From Deltaproteobacteria bacterium RIFOXYA12_FULL_61_11 (GTDB taxonomy: Bacteria > Bdellovibrionota_F > JAHFAK01 > YA12-FULL-61-11): a stretch of DNA of 8,153 nt. Both the position numbers and the translations under genes were made by a program. The DNA is taken from the NCBI GenBank assembly GCA_001799195.1, contig MGSU01000098.1, forward strand, positions 2,918 to 11,070, read 5' to 3'. Positions 1-8,021 of this stretch are shown one piece after another. A model generated the notes under the pieces. It did not search any database. It was not told the DNA's origin and saw only the letters and a list, made by a program, of their open reading frames with translations. How positions within the stretch are numbered: the first letter of the stretch is position 1; each line of letters opens with the position of its first letter.

Positions 1-363
1 CGAACCATAGACCAGCCGTGGGCCGGGTTTGAGTTCAGCGGTGGTGTTCCTGAAGAGAGATCTGAAGAAAAGAACTTCGAGGGCCATGCGCCCTAGCACT
101 CCCAAGGTCGAGGACGGGCTCTCGAGCCGGCTGGAAGGGATCCAATCCAGGGACCTCTGTTGTCCGCAGGTGGTCGGGATGTTGAAGGGCACCGGAGTGC
201 TTGCCCAACGATACACGCGATACAGGAAGCCGAGAATAAAGAGGGTGATGGCCGAATAGGGGAGGACCACGCCGAAGAGACCGTGGAGTTGCCAAGCACT
301 GATTCCCCAGGTGCTGATGACGACCAGACCCAGGACGGCGACGAGGGAGACGAAGACGTTCAT
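1..363 (-). CDS. dsrM: DsrM, membrane cytochrome b subunit of DsrMKJOP (5' part; runs off the left edge)
   Basis: The first 121 codons are present and the frame is open to the window edge. DsrM is the NarI-like dihaem cytochrome b of the DsrMKJOP complex. It sits in the cytoplasmic membrane and exchanges electrons between menaquinone and the DsrK side of the complex, which acts on DsrC. Visible here are two hydrophobic helices, at about residues 4-20 and 28-50. A loop follows with the conserved-looking IPTTCGQQ (62-69), then an LGVLGRMALEVLFFRSLFRN stretch (87-106) typical of DsrM between its second and third helices. The haem-ligating histidines lie beyond the window edge. The start at 363 is chosen because AGAGGA ends 6 nt upstream. 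A second in-frame ATG at 369 directly abuts that site and is unlikely. The start overlaps the stop of the RsbRD gene (ATGA), so the two are translationally coupled. Recognition is from memory of the family, not a search. Confidence 0.9.
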   Translation of the reverse strand, partial: MNVFVSLVAVLGLVVISTWGISAWQLHGLFGVVLPYSAITLFILGFLYRVYRWASTPVPFNIPTTCGQQRSLDWIPSSRLESPSSTLGVLGRMALEVLFFRSLFRNTTAELKPGPRLVYGS

Positions 364-914
364 GGACATTCCTCTCGCGATGGTTCTTCCTGCTGACGGC
401 CCCGCCGACCGCGCAATTCGCCATAGGCCTCTTCGACCCGCTCCAGCATCTTGAAATGGCGATCGCGGAGTTCACGCCCCCGTATATCGTGGAGCAGGTC
501 GCGACTGGCCACATAACGGTCCAGCGCGGCGCGGAGCAGACGTTCGTACTTGGGTTCCAGCTCGGACAGGTTGGCCCTCAAGGTTCCGCCGGAGCGATGC
601 ACGAGGTCTTCGATGACCTTGCGCAGGGAAAAGGCGAAATCCAGAGCCTCGGAGGGCTTGAATTCTTGCACGGCGCGCACGCGGACGAGTTCTTCGAGGG
701 CCTGCTCCAAACGAGGGCCATCGGCTTCACCCAAAAATTCCTCGACCGTCGCCTCAAGGCACCGCCTCGCAGTCGAACCGACCGGATTCGTGAAAACTTC
801 GCGGTTTTTAGCGAACTGAGCGACGGCCTCGGCAGGATAGGTCGCCAGCAAGGCCTCGAACCATCGTTCCAGCAACGTCGATCGATGCTGTTCAAGGAAC
901 TCAATCAATGTCAT
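360..914 (-). CDS. RsbRD N-terminal-domain protein, coupled to dsrM
   Basis: A 184-residue soluble, mostly helical protein with no signal peptide or membrane segment. It matches the RsbRD N-terminal domain family: an N-terminal helix with LLERWFEALLATYP (14-27), the KNREVFTNPVG block (36-46), and RVRAVQEFKPSEALDFAF (78-95). The C-terminal part (about 140-168) is a charged helix, followed by an arginine- and glutamate-rich tail. Proteins with this domain commonly precede dsrMKJOP in sulfate reducers; their biochemical role is not established. The domain takes its name from the N-terminal, globin-like module of stressosome RsbR paralogues, so a sensing or docking role for the Dsr complex is an inference. 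No STAS domain is present. The start at 914 is chosen because GGAG lies 7 nt upstream. The frame stays open up to 1064, but that extension has no protein-like pattern. The stop overlaps the dsrM start by 4 bp. Confidence 0.85.
   Translation of the reverse strand: MTLIEFLEQHRSTLLERWFEALLATYPAEAVAQFAKNREVFTNPVGSTARRCLEATVEEFLGEADGPRLEQALEELVRVRAVQEFKPSEALDFAFSLRKVIEDLVHRSGGTLRANLSELEPKYERLLRAALDRYVASRDLLHDIRGRELRDRHFKMLERVEEAYGELRGRRGRQQEEPSREECP
370..375 (-). promoter_or_regulatory. Ribosome binding site of dsrM, inside the RsbRD gene
   Basis: The minus strand reads AGAGGA here, 6 nt before the ATG at 363-361. The site lies within the last codons of the upstream gene. It decides between the two in-frame ATGs at 369 and 363 in favour of 363. 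Confidence 0.6.
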
Positions 915-935
915 AGCCTTACTCCGACGTGCCGT

Positions 936-949
936 CCACCCCGGGGTGG
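936..949. promoter_or_regulatory. Perfect 14-bp palindrome in the leader of the RsbRD-dsrM operon
   Basis: CCACCCCGGGGTGG is fully self-complementary. It lies 22 bp upstream of the RsbRD start codon and 11 bp upstream of its ribosome binding site, downstream of the candidate promoter. It could be an operator for a dimeric regulator bound just downstream of the transcription start. It could also form a leader hairpin with a 5-bp stem and a CCGG loop. The sequence shows the symmetry; the function is inference. Confidence 0.4.
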
Positions 950-981
950 GGGTCTTCGACAAGGAGTCACTTTCGGGGGCA

Positions 982-1010
982 GATGTATGCAATGGCCTTT
1001 CAAAGATCAA
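982..1010 (-). promoter_or_regulatory. Candidate sigma-70-type promoter for the RsbRD-dsrM operon
   Basis: On the minus strand TTGATC (1010-1005) and TACATC (987-982) are separated by exactly 17 nt. A run of six A's lies 3 nt further upstream (1019-1014) and resembles an UP-element tract. The -35 matches the consensus at four of six positions and the -10 only at three. The expected transcript would begin near 975 and have a leader of about 60 nt containing the 936-949 palindrome. Confidence 0.35.
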
Positions 1011-1065
1011 GGATTTTTTCGTCGGTGTACGCTCTTTCGGAAGGCAACCCGGCACGCTGAGCACC

Positions 1066-1206
1066 TCAGGTCTCGGACGACAACCACCTGTTGTACGTCT
1101 CTAGGTCCCGCAGGAACACCCGTTCGCGCGTTCCCGAGCTCAAGGCGAGATGGAGCTTGACGAATACCGGCGCACTTGCTAGGAGGTCTGCACGGATCGA
1201 AGACAC
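1066..1206 (-). CDS. Possible small protein (46 aa) opposite the sat leader
   Basis: I do not recognise this gene. A frame starting with GTG at 1206 and ending in TGA at 1066-1068 encodes 46 residues with a natural-looking pattern: ADLLASAPVFVKLHLALSSG, a short charged turn, then RERVFLRDLETYNRWLSSE. This reads as a strand, a turn, a strand and an amphipathic helix. About three quarters of its third codon positions are G or C, as in the neighbouring genes. AAGGA lies 10 nt before the GTG. If real, it would be the first gene of the minus-strand operon, 151 bp before the RsbRD gene. Against it are the non-ATG start, only 36 bp between its start and that of sat, and its overlap with the only sat promoter candidate. 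The same frame also stays open antisense through sat, which GC-rich coding strands often allow. Confidence 0.3.
   Translation of the reverse strand: MSSIRADLLASAPVFVKLHLALSSGTRERVFLRDLETYNRWLSSET
1157..1185 (+). promoter_or_regulatory. Weak candidate promoter for sat
   Basis: TTGACG (1157-1162), a 17-nt spacer and TAGGAG (1180-1185). The -35 is good (five of six) but the -10 agrees with the consensus at only three of six positions. It would give a leader of about 50 nt. No better sigma-70 pair is visible upstream of sat. Confidence 0.2.
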
Positions 1207-1242
1207 GACCGATGTGTCCTTAACCTCTAGGAGATCAGGACG

Positions 1243-2436
1243 ATGATACAACCCCATGGCTCCGACAAACTCAATCCCTTGTACGTGGCCGATGCGGCCA
1301 AACGCGCCGCTTTGACCAAAGAGGCTCAGAAGCTCCCCTCGATCGTCATCAGCTCGGCGGCGGCTGGTAACGCGGTCATGCTCGCGAGCGGTTATTTCAA
1401 CCCGCTCACCGGTTTCATGACCCTCGCCGATGCTCTCAGCGTCGCGAAGACCATGACCACCACCTCCGGCTTGTTCTGGCCTACCCCGGTGGTCAACGTG
1501 GTCAAGGACATCACCCCGATCAAGGGCGCCAAGCGAATTGCGCTTCGCGATCCCAACGTGGAAGGTAACCCGATCCTGGCGATCCAGGACGTCACCAGCA
1601 TCGACGTGGCTACCGAAGACCAGATGAAGCTGATGACCGAGAAGGTCTTCCGCACCCTCGACATGAACCATCCGGGGGTTTCCGCCTTCAACACGGTGGG
1701 AACTACCTTCATCGCCGGTCCGATCCAAGTCCTCAGCTACTCCTACTTCGCCACCGAGTTCCCCGAGACCTTCCGCACTGCGGTGGAAATGCGCGACCTG
1801 ATCAAGAAGAACGGCTGGGACAACGGCAACGTCGTCGCTTTCCAAACCCGCAACCCGATGCACCGCGCCCACGAAGAGCTGGTCAAGATGGCCATGGAGC
1901 GCCTGCACTGCAAGGGCGCAATCATCCACATGCTGCTCGGCAAGCTCAAGAAGGGCGACATTCCCGCCGACGTCCGTGATGCCTGCATCCGCAAGATGGC
2001 TGAACTCTACTTCAAACCGAACACCGTCGAGATCACCGGCTACGGCTTCGACATGCTCTACGCCGGTCCTCGTGAAGCCGTACTGCACGCCGTCTTCCGC
2101 CAGAACATGGGTGCAACCCACCTCATCGTCGGCCGCGACCATGCCGGTGTCGGCGACTACTACGGTCCCTTCGACGCCCAGACCATTTTCCACAACGAAG
2201 TGCCCAAGAACGCCCTCAAGATCCAGATCTTCGAGGCCGACAACACGGCTTTCAGCAAGGAACTCGGCAAGGTGATCATGATGCGCGAAGCGCCCGAAGG
2301 TCACAAGAAAGAAAGCTTCGTCGCCCTCTCCGGCACCAAGGTGCGCGAGATGCTCTCCAAGGGCGAGGCTCTGCCGCCCGAGTTCGCCCGGCCCGAAGTC
2401 GCCAAGATCCTCATGGGGTACTATCAGAGTCTGTGA
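1243..2436 (+). CDS. sat: Sulfate adenylyltransferase (ATP sulfurylase)
   Basis: A cytoplasmic enzyme of 397 residues that interconverts ATP plus sulfate with APS plus pyrophosphate. It activates sulfate in reducers and yields ATP from APS in oxidisers. Both active-site blocks are intact: QTRNPMHRAHE (201-211), and GRDHAGVGDYYGPFDAQ (297-313), which binds nucleotide. The ALSGTKVREML block (361-371) and a family-typical C-terminus (FARPEVAKILMGYY) are also present. There is no fused APS kinase domain. The region at 328-355, where many bacterial and archaeal Sats carry a cysteine-rich metal site, reads IFEADNTAFSKELGKVIMMR and has no cysteine. The start is an ATG with AGGAG 9 nt upstream. Codon use is strongly biased to C- and G-ending codons (AAC, AAG, ATC, GAC), as expected for a highly expressed gene. 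It is divergent from the dsrM operon. Transcription may continue into the glycosyltransferase gene, since no terminator hairpin follows. Confidence 0.97.
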   Translation: MIQPHGSDKLNPLYVADAAKRAALTKEAQKLPSIVISSAAAGNAVMLASGYFNPLTGFMTLADALSVAKTMTTTSGLFWPTPVVNVVKDITPIKGAKRIALRDPNVEGNPILAIQDVTSIDVATEDQMKLMTEKVFRTLDMNHPGVSAFNTVGTTFIAGPIQVLSYSYFATEFPETFRTAVEMRDLIKKNGWDNGNVVAFQTRNPMHRAHEELVKMAMERLHCKGAIIHMLLGKLKKGDIPADVRDACIRKMAELYFKPNTVEITGYGFDMLYAGPREAVLHAVFRQNMGATHLIVGRDHAGVGDYYGPFDAQTIFHNEVPKNALKIQIFEADNTAFSKELGKVIMMREAPEGHKKESFVALSGTKVREMLSKGEALPPEFARPEVAKILMGYYQSL

Positions 2437-2462
2437 CCCATCTGTCCTCTCCCTATCCGAGC

Positions 2463-2567
2463 ATGTCTGAACACGACCCTACACGCATCCTGACCTCGTC
2501 CGATTTCCGGAACTGGTCCCTCAATACCCCATGGGCCCCCTCCCGATGGGCCGCAACCACTGCATGA
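2463..2567 (+). CDS. Possible 34-codon leader ORF overlapping the glycosyltransferase start
   Basis: ATG at 2463 opens a 34-residue frame with three tryptophans. It ends in a TGA at 2565-2567 that overlaps an in-frame ATG (2564) of the glycosyltransferase in the ATGA arrangement. No ribosome binding site precedes it and I recognise no family, so it may be chance. If it is translated, the glycosyltransferase would probably begin at 2564 by coupling. Confidence 0.15.
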   Translation: MSEHDPTRILTSSDFRNWSLNTPWAPSRWAATTA

Positions 2568-4858
2568 ACTCGCCTGGTTTCATACATCCTCCTCGAACCC
2601 TAGGCCTCGTCGCCACGGCTCTATTCCTGCTCGTCCTCTTCCAATTCCTCTATGCGCGATGGTTGATCACGGAATGCGACCAGATCACCGGGAATGACAG
2701 CAACCCGAATCTCGTGCAAGTCATCGACGTTCACGGCCAGATCGACGCAATCCAGGCCGCGTGCATGGGAAATGCACCGAATACCTGCGTTGAGAGCATA
2801 TTGAAGCTTGTACAGCAAAGGGACTCCAGAACGACCTTCATGCCTCTGGTCACCGACCTCCTGGGAAGGGTCTTCGGTTTTTCACTCGATCGCGTGCGCC
2901 TCTACAACCAACTCTACGTCTGGCTCACGATCCTAGCTCTGTTCTCGATCGGGTTGCAGCTCAGAGATCCGATCTGCGGCGTGCTGGCTGCTTTCCTCTC
3001 CACCACTTCCCTTACCTTCCTGCACCTCGCCACCCACTACGAACACGATTTCCAGGCCCTTGCCTTCACCACGCTGGTTATCGCCTGTCTGCTCTGGACC
3101 CAGGGGTTTCGTCGGCCGTGGCGGTCCCTGCTCTTCGGCACCGTCTTCGGTATCGGGCTCCTCTTCCGACCTCACATCCTCTTCTATTGCGGAGGCCTCA
3201 TCCTCTGGGAAACGTGGCAGATCCTGCGCCTACCGACCACACCGAGCATTCCTAGGATTCGACGCTTCTTCAACCTCATCCCGACCATGTTTCCTGTTCT
3301 TGTTCTAACAACAATAGGATACGCTAAACATACCGAGCATCTGCTCGGTTTATTCACCGCGCGTATCTCCGCCTACTGGACGGGGATCAACGAACAGAAC
3401 GCTAGGTTGTTTTGTACCTCGAACAATCCTCCTCCCTGTTCCTTCGAGGCAGCCTTGTTCTACCCCCTGGCCCTCGTGCAGTACCTTTCCCCCCTGGTTG
3501 GCCTCCTGGCCCTCTTCGCCCTGGGTTTCTTGCTCTGGAAGAGGTCCAGAGGATGCGTCCCGATACTGTTGTGGTTGGCTTCTTCCCTCGTCTTCCTGAC
3601 CGTCATTCCGACGAAGCAGGAACGGTACATCCTCCCAGCCCTACCGGCCCTCAGCCTTGCCTGCGCTCTGGCTATCTGCAGCCTTCGTACTTCCCTCGGC
3701 CGGTCCCTGGCCTTCGCAGCCCTCCTCCCCCCCCTGGTCAGTGCTCCTATCCTCTACAATCCTCGAGTTCCCATAGAGAGTATCCTGCGCTTCATGCTGC
3801 CCCTGCCGATGGTGTCCCCAATCGGTCCGGAAACAACCCCCTTCTGCACGAAGAGGGCCCTGAACGAAATCATCTCCAAACTCGCTCAGTCGAGCGCAGT
3901 CCAGCGCCACCCCCTCCACCTCAACCTCTATAGTTCCACCCAGGTATTCGATCCCGACCACCTCCACTACCTCTTATGGTCGAGCCTCCCAGGCCTCGTT
4001 GTCTCGAAGATGTATCCTATTGAAATTACTAAACCAAATGCCGACTATACCCTCCTCTGGTATCACCCCGACGATACCATCTTCTGTCCTCGTTTCTTCA
4101 GAGCTGGGCCTACCCCCATGGACGAGGCAGGAGAGGAGGAACCTAGGCTCGTACCGCTCGAGTTCGGGTTGATCGTCCCCGGGAGCCCCCGCCCCAAACC
4201 TCCCACCCCCCTCGAACTGACCTACCACTGCATGAACCTTGCAGAGAAGCTGGAAGAGAGGGCTATCTTGGAGCAGTTACCGATCGCGCAGTGGGCAGAA
4301 CGGACCCTCCAACACAATATCCTGGAACAGCACTGGAGCTGTGATGCCAGGTATCACGCGGTCTTGTTGCGGCATCCCGCCCTGCCCTCACACGTCACCG
4401 AGTTCTCGCTCCAGCCCGCGCTCAACACCATCGCGACGTTCAACGCTCAGGCCGACCCTGTTTCCGGCCTGATGCAATCCGTCGGTGCCGGGCCTTTCTC
4501 CCTGACGTATGCGTACGACTTTTCCCAAACCGGGACCTATCAACTCTGGTACCAGGGTCCTCCGTGCCGGTGCGATCTGAGCATCTTCACCGAGGGGCCG
4601 AACGGTGCGGCTCAACTCGGCACCTGGGCCTTTCCCCGACCGTGCTCCCTGGATACAAAGGGACGCATCTGGAACCCGACCCCGTGCTTTACAATCGCCT
4701 CCCCGGGGGTGCATCGCCTGGTTCTCACGGTCTCCCACCCCCTGCAGAGTCTCGCCTGGATCTACCTACGCAGGGTGGCCTCGACCGCATTGTCGGAGCA
4801 AGCCTGCAACAGTGTAAATTATATCAATTTGTTACATGAATACTCTATGGTCGAGTGA
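2531..4858 (+). CDS. Polytopic GT-C (ArnT/PMT-like) glycosyltransferase with a long C-terminal extracytoplasmic region
   Basis: A 775-residue membrane protein, probably a lipid-linked-sugar glycosyltransferase of the GT-C fold acting on the outer face of the membrane; donor and acceptor are unknown. A first helix (about 23-46) leads to a long loop carrying Glu48 and Asp50 (TECD), where GT-C enzymes keep their catalytic acid. Then come FMPLVTDLLGRVFG (103-116), helices at about 127-142, 148-168, 174-190, 199-225, 250-264, 309-336, 341-360 and 367-407, RPH (213-215), and KQERYILPALP (362-372), a hallmark of ArnT-like enzymes. Residues 410-775 have no membrane span. Residues 625-750 look like a beta-sandwich, possibly carbohydrate-binding, with cysteines at 679, 681, 705 and 719. 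No start has a clear ribosome binding site: 2531, 2546 and 2564 are all possible, and 2564 leaves a sensible 11-residue tail before the first helix. Codon use is less biased than in sat and the coding strand is rich in C. It ends 21 bp from the convergent dsrN. Confidence 0.85.
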   Translation: MGPLPMGRNHCMNSPGFIHPPRTLGLVATALFLLVLFQFLYARWLITECDQITGNDSNPNLVQVIDVHGQIDAIQAACMGNAPNTCVESILKLVQQRDSRTTFMPLVTDLLGRVFGFSLDRVRLYNQLYVWLTILALFSIGLQLRDPICGVLAAFLSTTSLTFLHLATHYEHDFQALAFTTLVIACLLWTQGFRRPWRSLLFGTVFGIGLLFRPHILFYCGGLILWETWQILRLPTTPSIPRIRRFFNLIPTMFPVLVLTTIGYAKHTEHLLGLFTARISAYWTGINEQNARLFCTSNNPPPCSFEAALFYPLALVQYLSPLVGLLALFALGFLLWKRSRGCVPILLWLASSLVFLTVIPTKQERYILPALPALSLACALAICSLRTSLGRSLAFAALLPPLVSAPILYNPRVPIESILRFMLPLPMVSPIGPETTPFCTKRALNEIISKLAQSSAVQRHPLHLNLYSSTQVFDPDHLHYLLWSSLPGLVVSKMYPIEITKPNADYTLLWYHPDDTIFCPRFFRAGPTPMDEAGEEEPRLVPLEFGLIVPGSPRPKPPTPLELTYHCMNLAEKLEERAILEQLPIAQWAERTLQHNILEQHWSCDARYHAVLLRHPALPSHVTEFSLQPALNTIATFNAQADPVSGLMQSVGAGPFSLTYAYDFSQTGTYQLWYQGPPCRCDLSIFTEGPNGAAQLGTWAFPRPCSLDTKGRIWNPTPCFTIASPGVHRLVLTVSHPLQSLAWIYLRRVASTALSEQACNSVNYINLLHEYSMVE

Positions 4859-4879
4859 GCTCAGGGTTTGACGACTACT

Positions 4880-6274
4880 CTACGATGATCCATCCCTTTC
4901 GACTCGATGGTTCCTGGCCCGTTCTAAAAGGCAAGCTGCCCAGTCCTGCGTCGCTCGGGCATGGAGATGAGTGTACGAGGCCAGGACTTGATAGCGTACC
5001 ACCGCGTCCCGCCGAGCTCCAAAACCCTGCCCACGATCAAGCCGATAGGCCGTCGGGTGGACAATGTTTGCCGCGGCCGAGTAATGGAACTCATGGCCCC
5101 TAAGGCTCATACCCATGGGAAAGAAAGGATTGGGAGCATCGACCACGGCCTCGACATACCCATGGCCCCTGGGTTTCTCGAAGACCTGGAAGTCGAGATC
5201 CAGGACCGAGCAGAGCTCATGGCGCCTTCCCTCGACCAACACGCTGCGGCCGAGGAAGATGGCTCCACCGCACTCAGCGTAGATAGGTAACCCGGCCTCC
5301 GCCGCCTCGCGCACCTCGACCAGGAAGTCGCGATTGGCCGCCAGACGCTCTGCATGGACCTCGGGGAACCCCCCGCCCAGATACAAAGTATCGAGTTCCG
5401 GCAACCTCTTGTCAGTCAAGGCATCGAGGAAGATCAGCTCGGCACCTCCGGCTTCGAGCTGTTCGAGGTTCTCGGGATAATAGAAGTGGAAAGCCCGGTC
5501 CCGGACCACGCCGATGCGGACAGGATCGGCGGACGAGCGAAAGGTTTCTGACCCGAGCTGAGGAGGAAGGTTGATAGGGCTTGCGACGGAGAGCATGGTC
5601 TCGAGTTCGAAATACCGCTCACCGACTTCGGCCAAGCGATCCAGGAACATGGCCGCATCCTCTCGTTCAGCGGCCGGGTGCAAACCGAGGTACCGCTCGC
5701 CGACCAGGGCTTGGTCGAGTACGGGCAACACTCCGAGTACCGGGATAGCCTCGATGAAGCCGAGCGCTTCTCGCAAGACGGCCTCGTGCCGTTTGCCCGC
5801 GACTTTGTTGAGGATCACGCCGGCGAGTTGCAACTCGGGATCGTGAGCCCTGCAACCTCGGACCAGGGCGGCGATGGTCCCCGTACATTTGGTGCAATCG
5901 AGCACGAGGAGCACCGGCAGGCCCAGAAGTTTCGCCAGGGCTGCCGTGCTGTAGGATCCTCGTCCGTCAAGACCGTCGAAGAGGCCTCGATTACCTTCAA
6001 CCAACATGAAATCAAGATCTCGAGCGGCCTCGACAAGGGTTTCCCGAACCACCGTTTCTCCCATCAAGAACACATCGAGGTTACGACAAGGTCTGCCGCC
6101 GGCGGCGGTCAACCAACCGGGATCGATGAAATCCGGTCCCTTCTTGCAAGCCCCGAGGACGAGACCGCGACGGCGCAAAGCTGTGACCAGGGAGAGACTT
6201 ATCATGGTCTTGGCGGAACTGCCGCGCAGCGCTGCTACCACCAAGCCTCGGGGGGACGATGTTGGAGAGGACAC
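4880..6274 (-). CDS. dsrN: DsrN, siroheme amidase of the CbiA/CobB (cobyrinate a,c-diamide synthase) family
   Basis: 464 residues, the full family length. DsrN uses glutamine and ATP to amidate siroheme to the siroamide form used in DsrAB. The N-terminal nucleotide-binding domain has a P-loop at 16-23 reading LRGSSAKT, then KKGPDFIDPGW (44-54) and NLDVFLM (65-71), with LVEGNRGLFDG (91-101) further on. The C-terminal class I glutamine amidotransferase domain (about 252-450) has LYLGGGFPEVHAERLA (297-312), the nucleophile Cys335 in YAECGG, and GHEFHYS (393-399) with the catalytic histidine. The start is GTG at 6274, supported by GGAG 8 nt upstream. It lies 73 bp downstream of dsrL on the same strand, so the two probably share a transcript. 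The assignment to DsrN rather than CbiA of cobalamin synthesis rests on that neighbour, the sat and dsrM context, and the LRGxSxKT-type P-loop I associate with DsrN. No cobalamin genes are seen here. Confidence 0.85.
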   Translation of the reverse strand: MSSPTSSPRGLVVAALRGSSAKTMISLSLVTALRRRGLVLGACKKGPDFIDPGWLTAAGGRPCRNLDVFLMGETVVRETLVEAARDLDFMLVEGNRGLFDGLDGRGSYSTAALAKLLGLPVLLVLDCTKCTGTIAALVRGCRAHDPELQLAGVILNKVAGKRHEAVLREALGFIEAIPVLGVLPVLDQALVGERYLGLHPAAEREDAAMFLDRLAEVGERYFELETMLSVASPINLPPQLGSETFRSSADPVRIGVVRDRAFHFYYPENLEQLEAGGAELIFLDALTDKRLPELDTLYLGGGFPEVHAERLAANRDFLVEVREAAEAGLPIYAECGGAIFLGRSVLVEGRRHELCSVLDLDFQVFEKPRGHGYVEAVVDAPNPFFPMGMSLRGHEFHYSAAANIVHPTAYRLDRGQGFGARRDAVVRYQVLASYTHLHARATQDWAACLLERARNHRVERDGSS

Positions 6275-6282
6275 GGGGAATT

Positions 6283-6286
6283 CTCC
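6283..6286 (-). promoter_or_regulatory. Ribosome binding site supporting the GTG start of dsrN
   Basis: The minus strand reads GGAG followed by 8 nt and GTG. The next in-frame ATG is at codon 24, after the P-loop lysine and threonine, and so cannot be the start. The site sits inside a near-palindrome (6275-6286, GGGGAATTCTCC) with one mismatched pair. Confidence 0.6.
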
Positions 6287-6347
6287 GAAGGGAGGTGGAA
6301 GGAGACCAATCCGGGTGAGGACCGGCCTCGAACCACCGCGAGCTGGC

Positions 6348-8021
6348 TCAGCGCATGTCGAGGAAGCCGCAGGGACAGACCTTTGCGCACTTCTGACAGC
6401 CGGTGCACAGGTTGTGTTTGTACACGTAGAATTCCCCGACGTTGTGCGGTTTGCCGATGGCCTGATCTTGGCAGAACATCCAGCACTTCTCGCAATCGAA
6501 GCAATAGCCGCAACTCATGCAACGCTTCGCTTCGGCCAGGGCCTCTTCGGCCGAGAGGCCGCTGATGATCTCGACCTCGGGATCAGCCCAGCGCTCGGCC
6601 GCGGGCAGTGAGGGCCGCTCATGCCGCTCGACCTTCTCGTAGTGGTGCAACCGCATGTTATCGGTCAGGATGATCGGCAACTTTGCTTCAGCGCTGGGTT
6701 GTTCGCCACGGAAGCTCGCGTCGATGCTCTCGGCGGCCTTGCGACCCTGCGCAATAGCGGTGATGACCAGGCGAAGATCGAGGACATCCCCCCCGGCATA
6801 GACCTTGTCGAGGGAGGTGCGGCCGAATTCATCGGCGGTGAGCCACTTCTTGTCCCCGCGCAGGGTTTCCAGCCCGCGATAATCGGTATCCTGGCTGATC
6901 GCGGGAATGAGGGTGTCGATCTCTAACTCGTAGTCCGAACCCTCGATCGGGACCGGTCTGCGTCGGCCACTCTGATCGGGCTCACCGAGTTCCATCTTGA
7001 TGCAACGAATCTTCGTGGCGCGGTCCCCTTCGCGCACAATACCTACCGGTGTGGCCAGGAAGTCGATGGGTATTCCCTCGGCTTCGGCCTCGCGCACTTC
7101 ATGTTCGATGGCCGGCATCTCGGCGATGGTCCTGCGGTACATGATGCGCACGTCCGCGCCCAAGCGTTTGGCCATGCGCGCGGCGTCGATGGCACTGTCC
7201 CCACCGCCGACCACGATGACTTTCTTGCCGATGGAGAGCTTCTCGCCGGCATTGACCCGGTGCAAGAAGGCGGCACCAGTGATAACATTGCTGGCGTCCT
7301 CGCCCTCGACATAGAGTTTCTTGCCGCTGTGAGCACCGAGCCCCACGAATACCGCGTCATAGTCGCGCTGCAGATCGGCAAAGCTCACGTCGCTGCCAAT
7401 CCTGGTCGTGGTGCGCAGCTCAATACCCAGGGCGAAGATGCGATCGATCTCGGCTTTCAAGACCTTCCGCGGTAAACGATACGCGGGAATACCGTAGCGA
7501 AGCATGCCGCCGGCTTCGGGGAATGCCTCGAACACGGTCACCGCGTGTCCGCGCCGGGCGAGCTGATAGGCGCAGGAAAGGCCTGCCGGACCGGCGCCTA
7601 TGACCGCGATCTTCTTGCCGCTCTTCTCCTCGGTCAGGCGGGTCAGCGCAAGCCCCTTTTCCAGAGCCCAATCGCCCAGAAAACGTTCCAGGCAGTTGAT
7701 CCCTACCGCTGCATCGTGGTCCTTGCGGTTGCAGGCGGTTTCACAGGGGTGAGGGCACACCCGACCGATGACAGCCACCAGAGGATTTTTCTCGGCATCG
7801 AGGCGCCAGGCCAACTCATAGGACTGCTCGAGCGTACGACCGAAGCGTTCGGTATCGGCTAGGGTGCGTAGAATGGTACGGATCTCGGTGCCGTTGGGGC
7901 AACCGTTGACGCACGGCGGCGTTTTTGGAGCGGGATAGGGGCGCTCCGGCGACGAACTCCGCCCACTGCCGGAAGAGCCCGAGCTCTTACCGAAGGCCTT
8001 CTTTCTGGTCATCATTGCCAT
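6348..8021 (-). CDS. dsrL: DsrL-like NAD(P)H iron-sulfur flavoprotein oxidoreductase
   Basis: A 557-residue cytoplasmic protein of the glutamate-synthase small-subunit (GltD) type with a C-terminal ferredoxin, the architecture of DsrL. DsrL is thought to carry electrons between NAD(P)H and DsrAB. In order: a Ser/Gly-rich tail (11-24); an N-terminal Fe-S domain with Cys37, 41, 89, 93, 97 and 110; the FAD-binding GAGPAG (142-147); GMLRYGIPAYRLP (172-184); the NAD(P)-binding GGGDSA (272-277) followed by YRR (295-297); and VYAGGDV (407-413). A two-cluster ferredoxin closes it: Cys507/510/513/517 and Cys539/542/545/549, with further cysteines at 501, 504 and 551. The paired arginines after the nucleotide fold suggest NADPH, by analogy with GltD. 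The start is ATG at 8021 with AGAGGA 9 nt upstream. The main alternative is another GltD-like ferredoxin fusion; the dsrN, sat and dsrM neighbours favour DsrL. Confidence 0.82.
   Translation of the reverse strand: MAMMTRKKAFGKSSGSSGSGRSSSPERPYPAPKTPPCVNGCPNGTEIRTILRTLADTERFGRTLEQSYELAWRLDAEKNPLVAVIGRVCPHPCETACNRKDHDAAVGINCLERFLGDWALEKGLALTRLTEEKSGKKIAVIGAGPAGLSCAYQLARRGHAVTVFEAFPEAGGMLRYGIPAYRLPRKVLKAEIDRIFALGIELRTTTRIGSDVSFADLQRDYDAVFVGLGAHSGKKLYVEGEDASNVITGAAFLHRVNAGEKLSIGKKVIVVGGGDSAIDAARMAKRLGADVRIMYRRTIAEMPAIEHEVREAEAEGIPIDFLATPVGIVREGDRATKIRCIKMELGEPDQSGRRRPVPIEGSDYELEIDTLIPAISQDTDYRGLETLRGDKKWLTADEFGRTSLDKVYAGGDVLDLRLVITAIAQGRKAAESIDASFRGEQPSAEAKLPIILTDNMRLHHYEKVERHERPSLPAAERWADPEVEIISGLSAEEALAEAKRCMSCGYCFDCEKCWMFCQDQAIGKPHNVGEFYVYKHNLCTGCQKCAKVCPCGFLDMR

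Follow-up and report, generated by a model that had tools for sequence, protein, structure and literature searches.

The window, by which we mean the whole stretch of 8,153 nucleotides analysed here, is a segment of contig C98 that contains no N and lies between runs of N at contig positions 2908-2917 and 11071-11095. Its left edge carries the 5' part of dsrM on the minus strand (1-369; NF038037, E 1.8e-42). The whole dsrM of C98 is a 332-aa open reading frame that crosses the run of ten N, and the remainder of the gene lies to the left of the window together with dsrK and dsrJ; the whole dsrM, dsrK (NF045796) and dsrJ (NF038038) all scored above their cut-offs in profile searches. Overlapping dsrM by 10 bp, and on the same strand, is a gene for an RsbRD_N-domain protein (360-1064; PF14361, 63.9 bits, E 2.6e-17). 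In reducers dsrT has been described beside dsrM or upstream of it (PMC10504309, PMC6338057), and the RsbRD_N gene, which adjoins dsrM in this way, is most likely dsrT, an assignment by position only. No paper among the literature matches listed pairs "RsbRD" with dsrM.

Two genes on the plus strand occupy the middle of the window. ATP sulfurylase is encoded by sat (1243-2436; TIGR00339, 377 bits against a cut-off of 323). The Sat protein shares 74% identity with that of one other locus (L054) but 40-46% with Sat of other dsr loci, which suggests that there are two Sat lineages. The gene between sat and dsrN (2531-4858) encodes a membrane protein of 775 aa that bears a PMT_2 domain of the mannosyltransferase type; it was left unmentioned by an earlier, sequence-only reading of this DNA and fits no known dsr function.

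The right part of the window returns to the minus strand with dsrN (4880-6274) and dsrL (6348-8021), separated by 73 bp. Profile and domain matches identify the dsrN product as a CobB/DsrN-type amidase, and its gene lies within a dsr cluster, as expected for DsrN; in most related loci dsrN is found directly beside dsrL or after dsrD. Profile searches found no other GATase_3 protein in the genome, which makes a role in cobalamin synthesis less likely than the amidation of siroheme. The sequence-only reading had described adjacent dsrL and dsrN genes in one window with sat and an RsbRD-dsrM pair, and the profile and domain matches bear this out.

Locus organization and assembly

The same reading treated the lack of dsrAB and a separate dsrL-dsrN unit as properties of the locus, and neither survived extension of the contig. 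Because the window stops at the 25-N scaffold gap, the apparent lack of dsrAB is an edge effect. To the right of this gap, upstream of dsrL and on its strand, C98 carries an 83-aa gene at the position of dsrD (C98 11107-11358, or 8190-8441 of the window if extended) and dsrB (8448-9527 of the extended window; TIGR02066, 512 bits against a cut-off of 341.5). The partner gene dsrA lies on contig C333, the first 13 bases of which match the last 13 of C98 exactly. On its minus strand C333 encodes aprB, aprA, a CxxCxxCC protein, qmoA, qmoB, qmoC, an OsmC-like protein, dsrC and dsrA, with dsrC and dsrA at its left end. Joining the two contigs leaves about 47 bp between dsrA and dsrB, a fitting distance for such a pair.

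Across one scaffold gap and one contig join we infer a single continuous cluster with the order aprBA-qmoABC-dsrCA|B-D-L-N and with sat and dsrT-MKJ nearby; dsrO and dsrP are unseen because C98 stops after dsrJ. The gene arrangement is not unusual. The B-D-L-N order recurs in 20 other loci, all of other genomes. Of the 52 loci that have a dsrM close by, 48 have an RsbRD gene next to it, and the majority carry dsrL. The contrast that had been drawn between DsrL and RsbRD stands insofar as classical reducers lack DsrL, but their joint occurrence is not the unusual mix it had seemed.

Identity and subtype of DsrL

The 557-aa product of the 6348-8021 gene was assigned to DsrL type 2, the reductive group, from its domains, trees and residue signatures. 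An N-terminal Fe-S domain is followed by FAD and NAD(P) domains and a C-terminal two-cluster ferredoxin, the domain order of DsrL, and all C-terminal cysteines (11) are kept. The protein conforms to the criteria by which Loffler et al. 2020 (PMC7596348) curated DsrL; dsrAB is present in the genome, and dsrL is complete and unlinked to ferredoxin oxidoreductase genes. In a careful tree of 40 rows it fell within a 32-row clade from loci mostly carrying dsrABD (support 99/97) and within a 21-row subclade (100/95), and a 95-row tree likewise placed it among DsrL of mostly dsrABD-bearing loci. Three PRK12771-type proteins from plasmid records, homologues used solely as an outgroup, formed a separate group, and two of them adjoin nifJ. 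By its sequence, the protein is a true DsrL of a clade tied to reductive DsrAB.

Residues S24 and R27 fall at the positions of Cys39 and Cys42 of NfnB, matched solely via the pattern of the aligned relatives, and give the Ser/Thr plus Arg signature of DsrL-2. The DsrL of dsrD-lacking sets in the same alignment has Cys instead of this Arg, as published for oxidative DsrA (PMC7596348). The NAD(P)-binding domain is free of a long insertion and contains the DsrL-2 (2C) motif YRR at 295-297. This motif accompanies the use of NADP(H) by DsrL-2 of Desulfurella amilsii (PMC7596348), which would narrow the donor from NAD(P)H to NADPH. The subtype is probably 2C, assigned by signature and neighbours. 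In the DsrL proteins of one family (f81; loci L039, L040 and L042) the Cys42 position is occupied by Leu and the YRR motif is replaced by CRE, and their cofactor preference may differ. Viral contigs scanned with a single DsrL protein and with the DsrL alignment, a query that picks up generic flavoprotein motifs, yielded no DsrL.

The gene between dsrB and dsrL

The 83-aa gene of this genome gave no match to the Pfam DsrD profile, and one of 12 relatives matched it weakly at E 0.12. Resemblance to a canonical DsrD is weak, and a sequence search with a profile of the gene returned no DsrD structure. For a relative, structure prediction gave a winged helix with high confidence (pLDDT 91.9), and this model matches winged-helix domains, with DsrD absent among the listed fold matches; the winged helix is the fold class of DsrD, as given in the title of a crystal-structure study cited in PMC6018796. 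A gene of this kind follows dsrB in 86 loci, and the present one, presumably with the same winged-helix fold, stands directly after dsrAB. Among the 86 are loci of Kapabacteria and Ignavibacteria (L067 and L076) with a layout like that of the Thermonerobacter cluster published in PMC6338057, in which the name dsrD was given to the gene at that place. By position and by fold class, as modelled for the relative, we regard the small gene as dsrD, a putative homologue. The Pfam DsrD model is blind to this gene in DsrL-2 lineages, so that surveys based on that model may undercount DsrD.

DsrAB type and genome-wide searches

A tree built from concatenated DsrAB placed the locus, represented by dsrA of C333 and dsrB of C98, in a 69-row clade (support 100) whose loci mostly have the dsrD-position gene, and well away from five rows that lack it. 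One of these five (L158) has dsrE, dsrF and dsrH above curated cut-offs, which anchors that side of the tree as oxidative. Judged by this grouping apart from the oxidative type, DsrAB is of the reductive bacterial type, in agreement with the reducing-type organism that had been suggested.

Genome-wide statements come from profile searches of an assembly with an estimated contamination of 1.2%. They found one dsrA only and, in place of the dsrEFH set that marks sulfur oxidisers, one DsrE-family gene; since the genome is 87% complete, the missing dsrEFH and second dsrAB are soft evidence. Elsewhere in the genome (L010 743-3060, contig C84) an ArsR-rhodanese fusion, the lone DsrE-family gene and an SQR-III-like gene stand in a row, possibly a sulfide-sensing or sulfide-oxidising unit.

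Comparison with known systems

Published reports of DsrL in reductive organisms date back to 2018 and span many phyla, and its occurrence there with DsrD is documented in several studies (PMC6018796, PMC6338057, PMC7596348, PMC10591310, PMC11406059). The DsrL-2C systems (Diao et al. 2023, PMC10591310; Loffler et al. 2020, PMC7596348) resemble the present one in placing DsrL beside reductive dsrAB and the dsrD-position gene, in the YRR motif, in the Arg at the NfnB Cys42 position and in a full sulfate-reduction set, and we found no difference of substance.

Peatland Acidobacteria (Hausmann et al. 2018, PMC6018796) have a similar gene set (sat, aprBA, qmoABC, dsrAB, dsrC, dsrD, dsrN, dsrT, dsrMKJOP and dsrL) and, as here, a two-cysteine DsrC. 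Their dsrL is paired with dsrC downstream of dsrAB, whereas in the present cluster the gene after dsrL is dsrN, and dsrC comes ahead of dsrA. The cluster of Candidatus Thermonerobacter thiotrophicus (Thiel et al. 2019, PMC6338057) likewise contains dsrN and dsrL along with dsrAB-dsrD, and its dsrT lies upstream of dsrM, but its order is dsrD-dsrN-hyp-dsrL-dsrC, while dsrL comes before dsrN here. DsrL-1A of Allochromatium vinosum shares protein family and domain order with the window DsrL; it has an insertion of about 32 aa in the NAD domain as well as a longer linker, and it lacks YRR (PMC7596348), whereas the window protein is without the insertion and has YRR. In an Actinomycetes bin (L124 8742-17514) another dsrAB-L set, which has diverged, comes immediately after a reductive dsrABD-L set. 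A resembling double set has reportedly been published for Gaiellales SURF_19.

Interpretation and alternatives

The window is very probably the central portion of a complete cluster for dissimilatory sulfate reduction (sat, aprBA, qmoABC, dsrABC, the dsrD-position gene, dsrL, dsrN and dsrT-MKJ), in which electrons would pass from NADPH through DsrL-2 to DsrAB. The sequence-only reading had itself named two findings that would overturn it, both of which bear on this interpretation. One was that the 6348-8021 protein groups with generic GltD-ferredoxin fusions outside the DsrL clade. The corresponding rival reading takes it for a ferredoxin:NAD(P) oxidoreductase of the generic GltD/PRK12771 type with no Dsr role, and the best curated model for it is indeed PRK12771, a broad subfamily. 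Such a function is extremely improbable, as the trees put the protein inside the DsrL of dsr clusters and apart from the PRK12771 proteins, a tree uniting it with the latter was rejected (p-AU 0.023), and the gene is situated between dsrB and dsrN. The other was a chimera of two genomes, which assembly or binning could have produced. N gaps do flank the window on both sides, and the link between dsrA and dsrB was drawn from a 13-bp overlap, but GC is even on C98 and C333 (59.7-60.4%) and close to the 61-66% of five other short stretches, the various dsr genes find the same relatives, the same gene set occurs on single contigs in other genomes, and the contamination estimate is low; we consider a chimera very unlikely.

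As to the direction of the pathway, the cluster might be bidirectional or might serve the oxidation of sulfide or sulfur, with DsrL-2 carrying electrons from DsrAB to NADP+. DsrL-2 also accompanies oxidative DsrAB in some lineages (PMC7596348), Desulfurivibrio has been proposed to oxidise sulfide via sqr and a reductive-type pathway (PMC6018796), and the SQR-III-like gene beside the DsrE-family and ArsR-rhodanese genes leaves room for sulfide oxidation. That gene scored 114 bits against a model cut-off of 525, however, and the DsrAB type, the S/R signature of DsrL, the presence of the dsrD-position gene, the single dsrA and the lack of a dsrEFH set in the searches all point towards reduction. 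We therefore regard reduction as a better reading than reversal and an oxidative or two-way cluster as unlikely; the earlier suggestion of a pathway running either way finds little support. It is decidedly unlikely that the host phylum has gone unreported as a sulfate respirer and at the same time has a Dsr system drivable either way, with the SQR-like gene elsewhere in the genome.

For sulfate reduction, Sat and AprAB with Qmo would convert sulfate to sulfite. NADPH would reduce DsrL-2, with its FAD and four predicted [4Fe-4S] clusters, and DsrL-2 would pass the electrons to siroheme DsrAB, the siroheme being amidated by DsrN. DsrAB would reduce sulfite onto DsrC as a trisulfide, from which DsrMK(JOP) would release sulfide with membrane quinol as the source of electrons. 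The winged-helix protein encoded between dsrB and dsrL would be DsrD, the activator of DsrAB. We infer the direction of flux, NADPH as the donor, and the DsrD-like and DsrT-like roles. The coupling of NAD(P)H to sulfite reduction through DsrL, as put forward in the sequence-only reading, is the best reading once narrowed by YRR to NADPH, and the literature proposes the same for the group.

Implications

Many uncultured sulfate reducers of a similar kind are already known to have DsrL-2, so that this locus adds a member and not a new system, and the novelty that remains is the host, an uncultured member of a very small phylum. The one other genome of this phylum in the set searched had no dsrL at the limit used and no dsrA, and the closest DsrB among named genomes (77% identity) is that of a Candidatus Omnitrophota bin. 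The locus also illustrates how a window edge can give an ordinary cluster an odd appearance. It would place one more deep lineage among the probable sulfate reducers with DsrL-2, and it bears on the question of NADPH as an electron donor to DsrAB.
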